NCBI RefSeq assembly: GCF_000328625.1
Contig: NC_019978.1
Coordinates: 1,550,001-1,614,000, forward strand
DNA length: 64,000 nucleotides
From: Halobacteroides halobius DSM 5150
GTDB taxonomy: Bacteria > Bacillota > Halanaerobiia > Halobacteroidales > Halobacteroidaceae
Direction of reading: 5' to 3'
Notes under the pieces: model-generated
What the model saw: only the letters and a program-made list of their open reading frames with translations
What the model was told of the DNA's origin: nothing
Database searches by the model: none
Made by a program: the position numbers and the translations under genes
Shown here: positions 14,750-55,485 of the stretch, one piece after another
How positions within the stretch are numbered: the stretch's first letter is position 1
Layout: each line of letters begins with the position of its first letter

Positions 14750-15202
14750 CTAATAAATTTTTCTCTTTTCTGTTTCTACCTTCTGCTTGATTGCTTCTAG
14801 CATATTCTTACTATTACTCCTTACTTTTTTCTTTAGGATAGGATTTAATAACGGGGCCAACATCGCTACCCCAAACTCAAACTCTACACTTAAAGTAATC
14901 TTTACTCCTTGTACAACTTCCTTTAGATCCCATTTTCCCTCAAACTTTTTTAAATCTCCCTCCAATTGCTGATAAAGTATTTCATATCCATCATCATTAA
15001 ATAAATCTTTTTCTTTCCAACTAATACTACGCCCATCTATCTTTGTCTCCCAACTAGTAATAGTAGATTTTTTATCTCTCTTTAAGACTTTAACACTAAT
15101 GACATTTTCCATAAATTGAGGATAAGATTCCATATCTTTAGCTAACTGATAAGCTTTATCTATACTCCCGTTTAGGATTATACTTTCTACTACTTGTGGC
15201 AT
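14750..15202 (-). CDS. SRPBCC/COQ10-like (polyketide cyclase family) protein
   Basis: 150 aa with the pattern of the START/SRPBCC ligand-binding fold: an N-terminal strand (VESIILNGSIDKAYQLAKDMESYPQF in outline), a central beta-sheet and a long C-terminal helix (LLNPILKKKVRSNSKNMLEAI). Family members bind lipids or other hydrophobic ligands in a deep cavity. No signal peptide. Function here is unknown. It stands alone between the IscB element and the importer operon, and its stop lies just before that operon's promoter. Confidence 0.75.
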   Translation of the reverse strand: MPQVVESIILNGSIDKAYQLAKDMESYPQFMENVISVKVLKRDKKSTITSWETKIDGRSISWKEKDLFNDDGYEILYQQLEGDLKKFEGKWDLKEVVQGVKITLSVEFEFGVAMLAPLLNPILKKKVRSNSKNMLEAIKQKVETEKRKIY

Positions 15203-15216
15203 TTACAATCCTGCTT

Positions 15217-15250
15217 ATAAAAACCTATTTAAAACTACTTATAGGTTTAT
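15217..15250 (-). terminator. Weak hairpin downstream of iscB
   Basis: ATAAAAACCTAT and ATAGGTTTAT can pair with a two-base bulge; a TTTTT lies within the 3' arm on the minus strand. It may end the iscB transcript. Confidence 0.35.
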
Positions 15251-15283
15251 AAACAGATACACCCCCCTTTTTAAAAATACTTA

Positions 15284-16543
15284 TTAAACAATCATTAGAC
15301 CTTTAGGTCTATTTAATAGAGTTAAATTTCTAAATCCATAACCTCGAAAAATCTTACCTTTTAAAGTTGAGAAATTACAGACTTTAGAATTATATTTATT
15401 ATTCTTAATTCTTAATGAAGTAATATAGCCTGTATAAGTTTCACCATTTCTCTTAGTATATTTAACTAAATCTCGCTGTCTAAAACATTTTAATTCTTTA
15501 ATTTTAGCCTTAGACTTCTTTCTAAGAGGTTTAATATAATACTCTTTAATATCATCAATATTATCAACAGGTAATAGTCCAGTAGTACAAATAGCATCAT
15601 TACTATGGCTTTTTTCTATCTCATAGTCAATCCGCTTATTAGCAGTATTACCACCTGATGTAATTTCTAGTTGAGCTATTTTAGATAATTTATCTCTTAA
15701 CCAAGTCTTACCTTGCATAACATGACTTGCTGATTTTAAGTCAGATAATTCTTTGCTATTAATAATATCTAAAAATTGGTCTTTATACTGATACTCTCTA
15801 CCATCAACTTTATCTTTATGACAAGCTTTACATAAGGTAATTAGATTATATATACTATCTGCTCCACCATCTCGTCTAGGCATGATGTGGTGGGCGTGTA
15901 GCATAGTTTCAGTAGCACCACATAATTGACAAGTACAATCATCACGATATAGCGTAGCTTTTCTTAAATTCTCGTCAAGTCGATTAGACTCTTGATACTC
16001 CCAATTATAAAGTTCTCTACCTTCTGTTAATTTACGAATATCAATTGATACATCTTCTAAGACTATCTTATCTATTCTAATGTACTTCTTTAATTTATTT
16101 ACTACTCTTAAAATAGCTTGTTTCTTTTGGAGTATGCTAGGTGGTATTCGACCTTTTCTCTTGCTAGAGGAACGATTATCAAATCTAGCAGGTCTATATC
16201 TCTTATGAGAACGTCTATACCTACGATAACCTCTACGTTCTTCCATCTTTTTAGATGCATCTTGACGTTGCTCCATTACTGCTTTAAATAGAACTTTATT
16301 TTTAGTTTGACACTTCTGTACTAAAGCAAACCCTACCTTTTTAGCACCATCATCAATTCCTAAAATTAGCTTATCACTATTAACTTGGTCTTTAGGTACT
16401 TCTCTTTTTAGCTTAATAATAAGTGGATATTCTTCTACTAAACTAGCTTTACCCTTTCTAATTAAATACCATGCTTTTTTACTTTTAGTAGGATCAAGTA
16501 GCTTTCCCTTACTATCTAATACAAAAGCATATTTGTTTGGCAT
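15284..16543 (-). CDS. iscB: IscB RNA-guided endonuclease (RuvC + HNH)
   Basis: IscB is a compact RNA-guided DNA nuclease, the family ancestral to Cas9. The 419-aa chain has an N-terminal PLMP-type domain (YAFVLDSKGKLLDP), RuvC-I Asp64 in LGIDDGAKK, an Arg-rich bridge helix with RRGYRRYRRSHKRYR, RuvC-II Glu163 in VLEDVSI, an HNH domain with CQLC and HAHHIMPRR (His218/His219) and CKAC, and RuvC-III SHSNDA with Asp316. All catalytic residues are present. The ATG at 16543 has GGAGG upstream; a longer TTG reading would translate part of the omega RNA. The omega RNA is encoded immediately upstream. No transposase TnpA is nearby. Confidence 0.93.
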   Translation of the reverse strand: MPNKYAFVLDSKGKLLDPTKSKKAWYLIRKGKASLVEEYPLIIKLKREVPKDQVNSDKLILGIDDGAKKVGFALVQKCQTKNKVLFKAVMEQRQDASKKMEERRGYRRYRRSHKRYRPARFDNRSSSKRKGRIPPSILQKKQAILRVVNKLKKYIRIDKIVLEDVSIDIRKLTEGRELYNWEYQESNRLDENLRKATLYRDDCTCQLCGATETMLHAHHIMPRRDGGADSIYNLITLCKACHKDKVDGREYQYKDQFLDIINSKELSDLKSASHVMQGKTWLRDKLSKIAQLEITSGGNTANKRIDYEIEKSHSNDAICTTGLLPVDNIDDIKEYYIKPLRKKSKAKIKELKCFRQRDLVKYTKRNGETYTGYITSLRIKNNKYNSKVCNFSTLKGKIFRGYGFRNLTLLNRPKGLMIV

Positions 16544-16934
16544 CTCTGCCACCTCCATAATGGGAACTTCCCTTCCTGGCAATGTCAAATGGGGCTTAAA
16601 GTGTCTTTGGTGTTAGGCTACCATATTCCATAAGAACTTAGGTAAGCGTTCTTCCTTGACACCACAGAGCAGTTTACAGAGCAAGGCTCTGCCTGCGACC
16701 TAAGACTGATAGGATACATCCGAGGGTGTGATAATAAGCCTTGTCGAGTTAAAAGACTCTTTGACCAAATAACATAGGAAACGCCTTTTGTTACGAAGTG
16801 TCCGCAAGACACGAAGGCATTGTGCTAAGGATATTTCTATCCTCTACACTCCCTTAACCTTGAAAGCAACGAAACAGTTTTACCTAACTTTAAATAGCAT
16901 TAATTAGGATTTTATAAGCTGTTTCATAGCTCCT
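15296..16934 (-). mobile_element. IscB/HEARO element (IS200/IS605-related, no transposase)
   Basis: Proposed limits: AGGAGCT at the 5' side (16934-16928), directly after the aminotransferase stop codon, and at the 3' side a palindrome TAGACCTTTAGGTCTA (15296-15311) followed on the minus strand by ATGA (15295-15292). The last three iscB codons then lie in flanking DNA. HEARO elements are known to lie next to ATGA/GTGA (from memory). Non-autonomous: a TnpA in trans would be needed to move it. Confidence 0.6.
16562..16934 (-). ncRNA. Omega RNA (HEARO) of iscB
   Basis: About 370 nt directly upstream of iscB, strongly structured and conserved in blocks with a second copy at 53459-53888. Shared blocks include CAGCTTATAAA, GGGAGTGTAGAG, TGCGGACACTTCGTAACA, CGCAGGCAGAGC and AAGCCCCATTTGACATTGCC. 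A GGGAACTTCCC palindrome closes the 3' end. The guide should be the DNA just upstream of the scaffold, that is the last codons of the aminotransferase gene. Short ORFs read through here are not genes. Confidence 0.85.
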
Positions 16935-25822: not shown

Positions 25823-26941
25823 ATGCAGACCAAAATTGTAGATAAAGCATATAGTTTTAGAATTACACCTAATAAAAAGCAAGAAGAATTAATCAATAAA
25901 AATATAGGTTGTGTTAGGTTTGTATTTAACCACTTCCTAGCTCAATCTAAAGACGATAAATACTTATCATATTCTAAATTTGCTACACAATTACCTAAAC
26001 TAAAGAAAGAATATAATTGGTTAAGAGAAGTTGATAGTATTTCTTTACAACAATCTCTAAAAGACTTAGACAAAGCATTTAAGCGTTTCTTTAAAGGTTT
26101 AGGTGGTTTTCCTAAATTTAAATCCAAAAAGAATAATAAGCAATCTTATAGAACTCAATATTTCAAGCGTTCTAGTGGAACTGAAAGCATTGAGATTAAA
26201 GATAATAAAATCAAGCTACCCAAACTTGGTTGGGTAAAATTTAGAAAATCTAGAGAAGTTACAGGTAAAATTCAAAATGTAACTATTAGAAAATCAAAAG
26301 CAAATAAATACTATATTTCTGTATGTGTTCAAGAAGAAGTTGAAGAACTACCTCAAACTGATAAAGCCATTGGTATAGATTTAGGCTTGAAAGACTTTCT
26401 AATTACTTCTAATGGTGAAGTAGTTTCTAACCCTAGAACTCTATCTAAATATGAAAATAAGATTGCTAGACTAAATAAAAGACTTGCTAAAAAAGAAGAA
26501 AACTCAAATAATTGGTACAAAGTAAAGAATAAATTAGCTAGAGTACACGAGAAAGTAGCTAATATTAGGAAAGACTTCTTACATAAACTTTCAACTAAAT
26601 TAATTCGTGAAAATCAAACGATAGTAGTTGAAAGCCTAAAAGTTAAGAATATGCTTAAAAATTCTAGACTAGCAAAAAGTATCTCTGATGTATCTTGGTC
26701 TAAATTCGTTGACTATTTAAGCTATAAAGCTGAATGGTATGGTAAGGAATTAATTAAAATTGATACATTCTTTCCTTCAAGTCAACTTTGTAGTGAATGT
26801 GGATATCAAAAGAAAGAGGTCAAAGATTTAAGTGTTCGTGAATGGGAATGTCCGAAGTGTCATTCAATTCACGATAGGGATATAAATGCTAGTAAGAATA
26901 TTTTACAACAAGGTTTACAACTACAATTAGCTAGTAGATAG
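25823..26941 (+). CDS. tnpB: TnpB RNA-guided endonuclease (IS200/IS605 family OrfB)
   Basis: 372 aa, full length for the family. Domains: N-terminal helix-turn-helix/WED region (MQTKIVDKAYSFRITPNKKQ), then RuvC with Asp186 (IGIDLGLKDF), Glu270 (VVESLKVKNM) and Asp353 (HDRDINASKNIL), plus a zinc ribbon CSECG...CPKCH between the last two. All catalytic residues are intact, so an active RNA-guided nuclease of the Cas12 ancestor type is likely. GGAGGTGGAATT precedes the ATG. One of two genes in the window on the plus strand; no TnpA transposase is beside it. Confidence 0.95.
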   Translation: MQTKIVDKAYSFRITPNKKQEELINKNIGCVRFVFNHFLAQSKDDKYLSYSKFATQLPKLKKEYNWLREVDSISLQQSLKDLDKAFKRFFKGLGGFPKFKSKKNNKQSYRTQYFKRSSGTESIEIKDNKIKLPKLGWVKFRKSREVTGKIQNVTIRKSKANKYYISVCVQEEVEELPQTDKAIGIDLGLKDFLITSNGEVVSNPRTLSKYENKIARLNKRLAKKEENSNNWYKVKNKLARVHEKVANIRKDFLHKLSTKLIRENQTIVVESLKVKNMLKNSRLAKSISDVSWSKFVDYLSYKAEWYGKELIKIDTFFPSSQLCSECGYQKKEVKDLSVREWECPKCHSIHDRDINASKNILQQGLQLQLASR

Positions 26942-44267: not shown

Positions 44268-44600
44268 AAGAATCCTCCTAAACAACTACATTACTATTGA
44301 TAATTTTTAGTTTAACCTACACTATCTTATTATGAGATTTAATAAACTATTATCAAATAGCTAAATTAAAGTTAACTGTTATATATCTTAAATAAAGAAT
44401 CTATTTATCCTGCTACTTAATCAATTTAATTGATATAGTTTTCTGAACTTAAATAATAAAGTAGGACCAGCCTCACGGCTGGGACCTCTTGTCAAACTGC
44501 ACGTACGGTTCTCCCGTATACAGCTTTCGGTCATTGTTGCTCCTTAACAGAGAGTAAGTTATCGTCTTTGTGTTGCCACAAATGTATATTTTACTCTTGT

Positions 44601-45722
44601 CTAAAGCACATCGGTAAGCAGTGATTCTAGTCCTAAATCTCTTAATATTTTATTAGGAAGGCGATAATTCTGCCCTTTCGCCTTCTTTCCTTCTATAAAA
44701 CAACGTACTCTCATTCTTATCCAACCATCTAACTTTTTATATAGTCCTTTAATATTTCCTAGTAGAAAACTATTACCCCAACCTCTAATAATTAAATTAA
44801 GCTCATCAATCATTACAGCTACTCCTATTGACCTATTCCTTTTGGTTTTCTTTCTTACTTTATCCTTGAAACTTTTAATAGAGCTCTCTTTTGGCTTTTT
44901 ATAATCACAATTATAAAATTTAAATTCTAGAAATTTAAATCCATCATTAAAATTCGTAATTACTGTTTTCCGAGGATGTAGTCTTAAGTTTAATTCATTT
45001 TCTATAATCTGGCGAGTTACTTCCAAAGCACGTTCTGCTTTAGCTTTACTCTTAGCCATAATTATAAAGTCATCGGCAAATCTAACTATCTTATATCCTC
45101 GACGCGTCATTTTCTTATCAAAGTGATGTAGGTAGATATTTGCTAAAAGTGGAGAAATTACGCCTCCTTGTGGAGTTCCCTCCGTTGTTTCTTCTTTTCC
45201 TTTCTCAGTCATGACACCTATAGTAAGCCACGACCTAATAATATCTAATATCCAACCATCACTTACTTCCTCTGCTATCAGCTCCATTAAAATTTCATGG
45301 TCTATTGTATCAAAGTAAGATTTGACATCTGTGTCTAATACCCAATTATAACCTTGTTCTTTATATTCTTCTACTTTCTTAATTGCATCTTCGGTTGACC
45401 TATTAGGTCTAAAACCATAAGAACAGTCGCAGAATATTTCTTCAAAGTGTATCTCTAGAATCTGTTTCACTGCTTGTTGGGCAATTCGGTCTTTAATTAC
45501 TGGAATACCTAGTGGTCTTTGTTCTCCATTTCCTTTTGAGATATACGTTCTTAGAACTGGTTGTGGCTCATATCTATCTTCTGTTAACTGGCGATATAAA
45601 GCACTCATATTCTTAGTGTAATTTTCTCTAAATTCTTCAACTTCTACACCGTCAATCCCTCCACAACCACCATTATTCAAAACTTTCTGAGCTGCACAAT
45701 GTAAATGTCTTTTCTTAGTCAC
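44601..45722 (-). CDS. ltrA: Group II intron reverse transcriptase/maturase
   Basis: 373 aa. Reverse transcriptase blocks: GGIDGVEVEEF, RTYISKGNGEQRPLGIPVIKDRIAQQ, YGFRPNRSTEDAI, VLDTDVKSYFDTIDH, GTPQGGVISPLLANIYLHHFD, IVRFADDFIIMAKS (FADD replaces the usual YADD), LHPRKT and FLEFKF. A maturase X domain follows (IIRGWGNSFLLGN). There is no HNH endonuclease, as expected for class C. The start is a GTG at 45722 with no clear Shine-Dalgarno and follows a run of 12 A residues; the N-terminus may be slightly short. Confidence 0.93.
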   Translation of the reverse strand: MTKKRHLHCAAQKVLNNGGCGGIDGVEVEEFRENYTKNMSALYRQLTEDRYEPQPVLRTYISKGNGEQRPLGIPVIKDRIAQQAVKQILEIHFEEIFCDCSYGFRPNRSTEDAIKKVEEYKEQGYNWVLDTDVKSYFDTIDHEILMELIAEEVSDGWILDIIRSWLTIGVMTEKGKEETTEGTPQGGVISPLLANIYLHHFDKKMTRRGYKIVRFADDFIIMAKSKAKAERALEVTRQIIENELNLRLHPRKTVITNFNDGFKFLEFKFYNCDYKKPKESSIKSFKDKVRKKTKRNRSIGVAVMIDELNLIIRGWGNSFLLGNIKGLYKKLDGWIRMRVRCFIEGKKAKGQNYRLPNKILRDLGLESLLTDVL

Positions 45723-53094: not shown

Positions 53095-53409
53095 CTACTT
53101 TACATTAACAGTCTCTTTTAATGATTTACCAGCTTTAAAAGCAGGTACTGTTCGAGCTGGAATCTCCATTTCCTCACCTGTTTGAGGATTACGACCTGTT
53201 CTAGCACTACGATCCCGTACTTCAAAGCTACCAAATCCAATAAATTGAATTTTAGATCTTTCCTCAGCATCTTTCTTAGCTTCGTTTCTTAGATTTTCAG
53301 TAACTACTTCTAACATTGTGTTAACTGTTTCTTTAGTATCCTTTTTAGTAATTCCTGTTTTTTCTGCAATCTGATCTACTAAATCATTTTTTGTGATATT
53401 TTTTGCCAT
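53095..53409 (-). CDS. hup: HU family DNA-binding protein
   Basis: 104 aa from the ATG at 53409 (GGAGG nine bases upstream). MAKNITKNDLVDQIAEKTG, then the signature GFGSFEVRDRSARTGRNPQTGE and PAFKAGKSLKETV. Typical HU is about 90 aa; here about eight extra charged residues (RNEAKKDAEERS) lie before the beta-arm. Nucleoid-associated DNA bender. The region upstream is occupied by a HEARO copy. Confidence 0.94.
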   Translation of the reverse strand: MAKNITKNDLVDQIAEKTGITKKDTKETVNTMLEVVTENLRNEAKKDAEERSKIQFIGFGSFEVRDRSARTGRNPQTGEEMEIPARTVPAFKAGKSLKETVNVK

Positions 53410-53458
53410 TACAATCAACCTCCTTGTTTTAACTTATCTAAAACTAACTAAATATCAT

Positions 53459-53888
53459 TATAGTTACCTAGTGGGTATGATTTCCCACTAGGATTTGTGG
53501 TTCTCTCGAACCAATCTCCCTTGCGGGGTAATTCCCTTTTAGGCAATGTCAAATGGGGCTTATGCACTTTCGGTGTTAGCCTTTCATATCCAGAAGAACT
53601 AGACTTAGACGAGGTTTCTTCCTTAGTGCCACAGAGTAGCTTACAGAGCAGAGCTCTGCCTGCGATTTGGAACTGATGGATATATTCCAAAGTGTGATAA
53701 CCTTGTTGAGTTTAATAAAAACTCTTTAACCAAATAACATAGGAAACGCCTTTTGTTACGAAGTGTCCGCAGAACACGAAGGCAATGTGCTAAGAACTTT
53801 TCAGTTCTCTACACTCCCTTTGCCTTGAGAGCAACGATCAACTTTACCTAGTTTTAACTAGGAATTTATAAGCTGTATCATAGCTCCT
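53459..53888 (-). mobile_element. iscB-less HEARO element (stand-alone omega RNA)
   Basis: Starts with AGGAGCTATGA like the IscB element, keeps the omega RNA scaffold, then diverges after TTGCC into a short tail: CCCCGCAAGGG, GGTTCGAGAGAACC, and a perfect 9-bp hairpin CCTAGTGGG/CCCACTAGG (53467-53492). It ends before ATGA (53458-53455, minus strand). No iscB or transposase. Non-autonomous derivative (MITE/PATE-like), inserted upstream of hup. An 80-codon frame through it is not a gene. Confidence 0.75.
53534..53888 (-). ncRNA. Omega RNA (HEARO), stand-alone copy
   Basis: Aligns along its length with the RNA at 16562-16934, including TGCGGACACTTCGTAACA, CGCAGGCAGAGC and AAGCCCCATTTGACATTGCC, with covarying changes such as the AACTGAAAAGTT hairpin. 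Its guide would come from the sequence right of 53888, different from the IscB locus. Confidence 0.8.
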
Positions 53889-53980
53889 ACTTAATAATAT
53901 TACCTTTATAGTAATTATTATGCCACAAATAGATTTCTTGATATCTTTTAATTCTCCTTCTTTTTTCAAAAAAAAATAAA

Positions 53981-53999
53981 TCCGGTCTAATAGACCGGA
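53981..53999 (-). terminator. Terminator after spoIVA
   Basis: TCCGGTCT/AGACCGGA stem followed on the minus strand by a T-run (53980-53968). Confidence 0.9.
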
Positions 54000-54006
54000 G
54001 AGGTAA

Positions 54007-55485
54007 TCACAATATAATACAAATCAAACCACCACTTCCTTCATTTACAATTTTCTCTAGAGTATCTCGTAATTTCTCTTGTGCATTGACTGGCATTCGA
54101 TATAATTTATTATTAATACCATCTTTAACTAATTCATGTAGCGAACGACCTAAAAAGTCTGAATCCCAAACCGCTTCTGGATTCTCATCAAATTCTGTTT
54201 CAAAGAATTCAATTAATTCCTCACACTGCTTTTCCGTTCCTACTACTGGAGAAACTTCAGTTTCAATATCCGCCCTAACTAGATGAATAGAAGGTGCTGA
54301 AGCTCTTAATTTAACTCCAAAATGACCTCCCCGATTTATTTTCTCTGGCTCAGCAAAAACCATATCATCTAAATTTGGAGTCACAATTCCATAACCTCTT
54401 TCTTTAACTTCTTCTAAAGCATCAGCTACCTTATCATATTCTTCTTTAGCTACGCTTAAATCTTTAATTAAACTAAATAACTCTCGTTCATCTTCAATTT
54501 CCAATCCTGTTGTCTCTTCTAATACTCGATAAAATAAGTCTTTTTGTAGAGTAAATTCTAACTCAGCTATTCCACTTCCCAAATCTAGATTACCAACATT
54601 AACCCGCTTAGAATGATCACTTGCATCTAAATTGGAGGATAAATTTTCAATATCTCTAAGACTAAAGATATCTTTTACCCCTTGATGAATAACTTCATCT
54701 AACTCTTGACTAAGCCAATGAGCATCTTCTAACTCATCAATCCATAGAGGTAAATCAATATTAATTTCTCGTAGTGGAAATTCATATAATACTTCTTGTA
54801 ATAAATAATTAATATCTTCTCCGTCTAAATTAGCACAATCTACTGGAATAACCCTTTTATTATACTTTTCTTCTAACTTATTAGCAAGCTTTTTAGTTTC
54901 TTTACTTTCTGGTTGAGCTGAATTAAGAGTTATAATAAATGGTTTACCTAATTGATTTAACTCATTTATTACTCGTTCTTCAGCTTCTATATAGTTTTCT
55001 CGTGGTAACTCAGTAATTGAACCATCCGTAGTAACTACTAATCCTATTGTTGAATGATCTTCAATAACTTTAGCTGTTCCTATTTCTGCTGCTTGCTCAA
55101 AAGAAACTGGTTGCTCAAACCAAGGAGTCGTTACCATTCTTGGCCCAGAATCTTCTTCATAACCTAAAGCACCATCCACTTTATACCCTACACAATCAAC
55201 TAACCTAACATTAAAATCAACATTATTTTCTAGGCTAATCTGAGTTGCTTGATTAGGTACAAACTTAGGTTCAGTAGTCATAATCCTCCTACCTTCACCA
55301 CTTTGCGGTAATTCATCCTGTGCTCTTTCTTTACTATTCTCATCTTCAATATTAGGTAACACCAATAAGTCCATAAACCTTTTAATAAAGGTAGATTTCC
55401 CTGTTCTAACCGGGCCAACTACCCCTATATAGATATCACCATTTGTTCTAGTAGCAATATCTTGATAGATATTAAATGATTCCAT
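54007..55485 (-). CDS. spoIVA: Stage IV sporulation protein A
   Basis: 492 aa. Coat morphogenetic ATPase that polymerises on the forespore surface. Walker A GPVRTGKST (24-32) and conserved start FNIYQDIATRTNGDIYIGVVG; conserved C-terminus ending in GGLICIIL anchors to SpoVM. A marker of a spore-forming lineage. A sigma-E-type promoter lies upstream (55550-55577). Confidence 0.97.
   Translation of the reverse strand: MESFNIYQDIATRTNGDIYIGVVGPVRTGKSTFIKRFMDLLVLPNIEDENSKERAQDELPQSGEGRRIMTTEPKFVPNQATQISLENNVDFNVRLVDCVGYKVDGALGYEEDSGPRMVTTPWFEQPVSFEQAAEIGTAKVIEDHSTIGLVVTTDGSITELPRENYIEAEERVINELNQLGKPFIITLNSAQPESKETKKLANKLEEKYNKRVIPVDCANLDGEDINYLLQEVLYEFPLREINIDLPLWIDELEDAHWLSQELDEVIHQGVKDIFSLRDIENLSSNLDASDHSKRVNVGNLDLGSGIAELEFTLQKDLFYRVLEETTGLEIEDERELFSLIKDLSVAKEEYDKVADALEEVKERGYGIVTPNLDDMVFAEPEKINRGGHFGVKLRASAPSIHLVRADIETEVSPVVGTEKQCEELIEFFETEFDENPEAVWDSDFLGRSLHELVKDGINNKLYRMPVNAQEKLRDTLEKIVNEGSGGLICIIL

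Follow-up and report, generated by a model that had tools for sequence, protein, structure and literature searches.

The ribosome-binding site (SD sequence) of hup in Halobacteroides halobius DSM 5150 almost certainly holds a non-autonomous mobile element that carries an omega-RNA and no nuclease gene. Taken as a whole, the best explanation is an IscB-type transposon of this kind whose RNA is served in trans, and we give this reading a probability of about 0.6. The element lies in the stretch of 64,000 nucleotides that was analysed here (the window; NC_019978.1, positions 1,550,001 to 1,614,000). Positions in kb or Mb, or with the prefix C1, are those of the genome, and a caret in a sequence marks an element junction.

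Table 1. Features of the two elements in the window and of the hup region, in window positions
Feature	Position	Strand	Basis or remark
Complete IscB element, in the SD of ORF 14750-15202	15210-16934	-	Ends set against the C1:65 kb copy (98% identical)
IscB of the window	15284-16588; from ATG, 15284-16543 (419 aa)	-	Pfam RRXRR (PF14239) and HNH (PF01844)
omega-RNA of this IscB	16572-16864	-	R1
hup, HU-like DNA-binding protein, SD occupied by element	53095-53409	-	PF00216, E 3e-31
Rebuilt SD AAGGAGG at right junction, 9 nt upstream of hup ATG	53419-53425	-	Sequence; 407-kb and 183-kb copies end alike
iscB-less mobile element (omega-RNA and right-end region)	53420-53883	-	464 nt between two SD-like junctions
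Right-end palindrome CCTAGTGGGAAATCATACCCACTAGG, 9-bp stem, arms CCTAGTGGG...CCCACTAGG	53467-53492	-	
Hairpin GGTTCGAGAGAACC between RNA 3' end and right end	53499-53512	-	
omega-RNA scaffold core, HEARO-like	53536-53829	-	R1 covariance model
Left-end subterminal palindrome CCTAGTTAAAACTAGG	53847-53862	-	Sequence
5' part of native hup SD, TAGGAG, insertion target	53884-53889	-	Empty sites in relatives
Predicted guide: native hup leader from predicted transcription start to element	53884-53910	-	Position relative to conserved -10
Conserved hup promoter, extended -10 TGGCATAAT, weak -35, left flank of element	53917-53944	-	Block in seven family-level relatives
Terminator between spoIVA and hup promoter	53981-53999	-	8-bp stem, then T run
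spoIVA, upstream gene	54007-55485	-	PF09547/PF20438/PF20439; same neighbour in relatives

The Rfam model for HEARO (RF02033) gives no match to the hup omega-RNA even at an E-value of 10, and a separate detector was therefore built from which the source genome was excluded. For this covariance model (R1), 190–230 nt upstream of 22 related IscB genes from genomes and viral contigs were aligned; the training set thus comprised 22 omega-RNAs adjoining IscB genes in other genomes, with H. halobius left out. The resulting structure has 45 pairs, is 93.3% paired, and includes 33 pairs that are changed on both sides. Its covariation of 0.538, compared with 0.186 after shuffling, was reached in 0 of 500 shuffles, and the structure collapses when slid by one column. 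R1 matches the hup leader over its full length (39.3 bits, E 2.7e-7), scores the RNA of the window IscB at 48.1 bits, and also recovers the remaining omega-RNA copies of the same genome. One relative is recognised by Rfam HEARO, though weakly (25 bits across the full model). The RNA at hup belongs to a diverged branch of HEARO for which the Rfam model is too strict, and that model was dropped as a detector. No iscB lies beside the hup omega-RNA. The initial annotation, which had described an omega-RNA scaffold without a nuclease gene adjoining hup, was thus right about the locus and drew it too short, as the element reaches 53420, at the hup SD.

The original state of the site can be read from related genomes. 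In 11 relatives with a syntenic region, spoIVA is followed directly by hup, and the gap contains no element. Where present in relatives, this gap comprises a terminator, a promoter block, and the SD TAGGAGG about 10 nt before the ATG. The promoter block TGTGGCATAATAA, with its extended -10, is conserved upstream of hup in seven family-level relatives. In H. halobius it survives intact to the left of the element, and the native SD is split as TAGGAG^G around the insertion. Since the conserved promoter lies in this flank, the omega-RNA should be made as the hup leader, which we consider likely. The simplest reading of the sequence would be a single transcript from the hup promoter that runs from a predicted start site through native leader, omega-RNA, and rebuilt SD into hup. 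The native leader would then be the guide, with a predicted length of 27 nt that depends on the predicted start. The 5' flank of the RNA is native hup leader of unique sequence, and the guide plus GGAGG has no other site in the genome with three or fewer mismatches. The chromosome thus offers the guide no intact target, a point against service in trans, and the only intact target would be a hup allele that lacks the element.

DNA and protein searches of the genome located three IscB elements, at C1:65 kb, 1.566 Mb (the one in the window), and 1.916 Mb, and four iscB-less copies, namely the hup element and copies at 407, 183, and 2504 kb. The ends of the hup element were set where similarity with the other three iscB-less copies ends, and its junctions read TAGGAG^CTATG on the left and AAGGAG^G on the right. 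In all seven copies a start codon ATG lies 6–9 nt beyond the right end. The genes entered are hup, pfkA, rplK, those for an amino-acid permease, a UPF0004 protein, and a polyketide_cyc protein, and one ORF without a Pfam match. Left ends read (A)AGGAG^CTA except in the 183-kb copy, which has AAGAGCTA. Right ends read AAGGAGG in the iscB-less copies and GCAGG or CTAGG in the IscB copies; six of the seven were fixed where similarity between copies stops, and the 1.916-Mb end was set by analogy. Other Firmicutes have related IscB elements whose left end is (A)GGA/GGA, in many cases immediately behind a stop codon; beyond the right end, 13 of 19 have an SD and then ATG by a crude automatic rule. 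Because the seven copies and these relatives show the same placement, the element is taken to target SD sequences. As the iscB-less copies bring their own SD-like version of this motif at the right end, insertion at the SD (AAGGAG) rebuilds the ribosome-binding site of the gene that is entered. It also always leaves the omega-RNA in sense orientation, between the promoter of the host gene and its ATG.

These features resemble those of non-autonomous IS200/IS605 derivatives (MITE- or PATE-like), which likewise have an internal deletion and keep their subterminal palindromes, found here at both ends of the hup element. Insertion 3' of a short fixed motif on the same strand (AAGGAG or AGGA), a similar motif at the right end (AAGGAGG or CAGG), and the absence of a visible duplication are further points of likeness. 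In contrast to such derivatives, the hup element carries a nearly intact nuclease-guide RNA, and the genome has no match to a Y1 transposase (PF01797). Present mobility is therefore doubtful, and we infer movement by the IS200/IS605 route, as well as membership by mechanism, from the ends. The Y1 transposase may have been lost, or the transposase may be of another kind. Two further mobile-element features were seen in the window. A TnpB (OrfB_IS605 with TNB and HTH domains) is encoded at 25823-26941 (+) in this genome without a detectable Y1 transposase, and a group II intron domain match (44456-44528) directly follows a reverse-transcriptase/maturase-like ORF at 44601-45722 (together 44456-45722, -).

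The iscB-less copies are in different states. The 407-kb copy is a sister of the hup element (96% identical), and the 2504-kb copy is a 128-nt remnant that keeps only the two ends. The 183-kb copy (L018, C1:183404-183877) sits between nusG and rplK and is damaged, being without the 3' strand of the pseudoknot. It is also a mosaic, with a 5' part of the type at 65 kb and 1.566 Mb and the rest of the hup-element type, a pattern that suggests recombination between copies. The genome search proposed in the initial annotation thus did find more copies of the scaffold, each with a different predicted guide from its flank.

Two smaller segments vary among the RNAs. One site of the omega-RNA either has a hairpin of about 40 nt (CCTTCGTGTCC..GGACACTTCG..AAAAGGCG) or lacks it cleanly, as judged from window 53743-53784, C1:407 kb, 1.566 Mb, 1.917 Mb, and locus L048, and two copies differ in this even though their IscBs are 98% identical. 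An insert of about 118 nt between the omega-RNA 3' end and the iscB start occurs at C1:407636-407755, 65048-65167, 183673-183785, and 1916965-1917080, and is absent from the hup element and the window IscB element. The idea that this insert is a dispersed element in its own right was rejected, since the genome search locates it in omega-RNA copies only.

Nucleases that could serve in trans are present in the same genome. The closest solved relative of the window IscB is HfmIscB (9k2z, E 5e-130), which belongs to its branch. The protein has a PLMP-like N-terminus and intact, constrained RuvC and HNH motifs; GIDDG, LED, HH, and SHSND are invariant in an alignment of six sequences. With dN/dS values of 0.13–0.20, the intact IscBs are under purifying selection, and by sequence they look functional. 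The complete IscB that had been noted 37 kb from the hup element is real. The hup omega-RNA is 94% identical to the RNA at C1:1.917 Mb and 77% identical to that of the window IscB, which is for this reason the less likely partner. Elsewhere, a locus with an omega-RNA followed by an iscB cut to about 104 codons (L035/L087, G011:C1:2135912-2136421) was seen in a genome that holds a complete copy at another place, and is a possible intermediate.

The most serious rival is that the hup element is a dead remnant, in which iscB was deleted internally, a few moves occurred while a transposase was present, and the RNA is now transcribed in the hup leader without function and drifts. We consider this appreciably less probable than service in trans, and the evidence from this genome alone leans towards it. 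Compared with the 1.917-Mb RNA, the hup omega-RNA differs at 6 of 72 conserved columns and 13 of 216 others, and its 407-kb sister at 3 of 72 and 11 of 216. Because these stand-alone scaffolds differ equally at both kinds of column, no selection on the scaffold is visible in this genome; two IscB-linked RNAs compared in the same way differ at 9/72 conserved and 52/212 other columns (P 0.02). Without excess constraint, and with two of the four stand-alone copies broken, the genome leans to decay. The missing Y1 transposase and a model score 9 bits under that of the closest IscB RNA also fit a remnant. Against it, the hup omega-RNA keeps 38 of the 45 consensus pairs, compared with 40 in its IscB-linked relative, two of its changes at conserved columns occur naturally in relatives (L047, L068), and intact cognate IscBs persist. 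Loss of an 'invariant' G in the stand-alone copies was considered as proof of decay and dropped, since its position at the edge of a hairpin insertion cannot be aligned unambiguously, and a different pair closes the helix. The hup omega-RNA may be functional or in early decay, and the chance that it is a working trans guide is about even.

Matching elements with a constrained scaffold in other genomes also speak against a dead remnant. A search for iscB-less copies that covered 398 genomes from the phylum and 189 from a single order yielded L108 (genome G087) and L116 (genome G585), which occupy the SD sites of rpmB and secG, respectively. Neither has an iscB. They share 94.6% identity over 444 nt, with scores of 176 and 172 bits, and have a common internal structure, including a 10-bp hairpin in place of iscB. 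Both genomes also hold an iscB-adjacent copy, although the iscB of G585 runs off its contig. Compared with an IscB-linked RNA, L108 differs at 1 of 73 conserved and 5 of 119 other columns (P 0.26), and L116 at 0 of 73 and 8 of 119 (P 0.02); one hairpin pair is changed on both sides in this scaffold comparison. The omega-RNA-only element of this lineage thus looks maintained, with its scaffold fully preserved. Since the hup-type element recurs in this unrelated genus, sequence comparison indicates at least two origins of omega-RNA-only transposons in housekeeping-gene leaders. In both lineages, strong hairpins stand before the SD in place of the lost iscB, about 25–80 nt after the RNA in L108 and L116 and at 53467-53512 in the window.

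The stretch between the RNA and the SD also has a far stronger fold than shuffled sequences in both lineages (z -4.4 for the hup tail, 53407-53535, and -5.1 for L108/L116). This strong fold, and the position of the omega-RNA between promoter and SD of highly expressed genes, would suit a domesticated leader, in which the RNA would control hup, pfkA, and rplK, either alone or with IscB bound to it. Such a role is improbable, as the 11 syntenic relatives do without the element in the hup leader, unrelated genes carry it in different genomes, the copies are in differing states of decay, and the insertion target already explains the placement. Least probable is a multi-guide system of the host, in which a single IscB would be deliberately directed by scattered RNAs to various targets, for example foreign DNA. 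In its favour, several RNAs whose predicted guides come from different flanks coexist with three intact IscBs. Against it, every such guide is no more than native sequence next to the insertion, and the hup guide, set by the landing place, matches nothing else in the genome. The initial annotation had offered a multi-guide system and a decayed transposon as the alternatives; the choice does not fall that way, for the element is a non-autonomous transposon, and its RNA may still work in trans or may have ceased to do so.

For the preferred reading, a non-autonomous element served in trans, a sequence of events can be proposed. The hup element has lost iscB and kept both transposon ends and the whole omega-RNA. 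An IscB from elsewhere, best that at C1:1.916 Mb, would take up the hup omega-RNA in trans, and the complex would cut hup leaders without the element. Cutting of such empty leaders would favour recopying of the element, either where it has been excised or into newly arriving alleles. The hup element is probably parasitic on IscB in trans.

The described OMEGA systems (IscB with omega-RNA/HEARO) share with these elements a covarying HEARO-like scaffold, an IscB with RuvC and HNH domains, and palindromic ends; their 5' guide comes from the left flank, as is predicted for the hup element. The hup element differs in having no iscB in cis and an RNA that Rfam HEARO does not recognise; moreover, the present copies go into SD sequences, which the iscB-less ones restore. 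Stand-alone HEARO or omega-RNA loci were reportedly noted in the first descriptions of HEARO and IscB, and non-autonomous IS605 elements with guide RNAs have already been described. Those stand-alone loci are similar in that no nuclease is adjacent and an IscB lies elsewhere in the genome, whereas the present iscB-less copies are discrete elements with defined ends that sit in housekeeping-gene leaders and are found again in an unrelated genus.

Retention and gene drive of IS605 elements by TnpB and its guide RNA have been documented (PMC11870625). The role proposed here is alike, in that the element would be retained through cleavage of its empty site by a nuclease whose adjacent motif is identical to that used for insertion; it differs in the use of IscB, a guide at the 5' end, and a nuclease supplied in trans. 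For one IscB ortholog, the ribonucleoprotein and a purine-rich NNRR motif have been described (PMC9640706). In the open literature we found no description of an SD target combined with SD restoration and a guide RNA that serves as the expressed leader of a host gene, and nothing relevant on SD-targeting IS elements.

If the preferred reading is right, the choice of target would account at once for the sparing of the host gene, the expression of a guide RNA that has no promoter of its own, and a guide that always matches the empty site. The locus would offer a clean natural test of whether IscB accepts the RNAs of other loci. It would also show how a nuclease and its guide RNA can become distinct genetic units, a split that has been proposed in the emergence of separate-guide CRISPR systems. 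More tentatively, with odds somewhat short of even, omega-RNA-only transposons may form a recurrent class whose members insert into SD sequences, bring a replacement SD, occupy the expressed leaders of essential or highly expressed genes, and depend on a resident IscB in trans. If this class is true, it would represent a nearly cost-free element that is parasitic on a nuclease and turns host leaders into guides.
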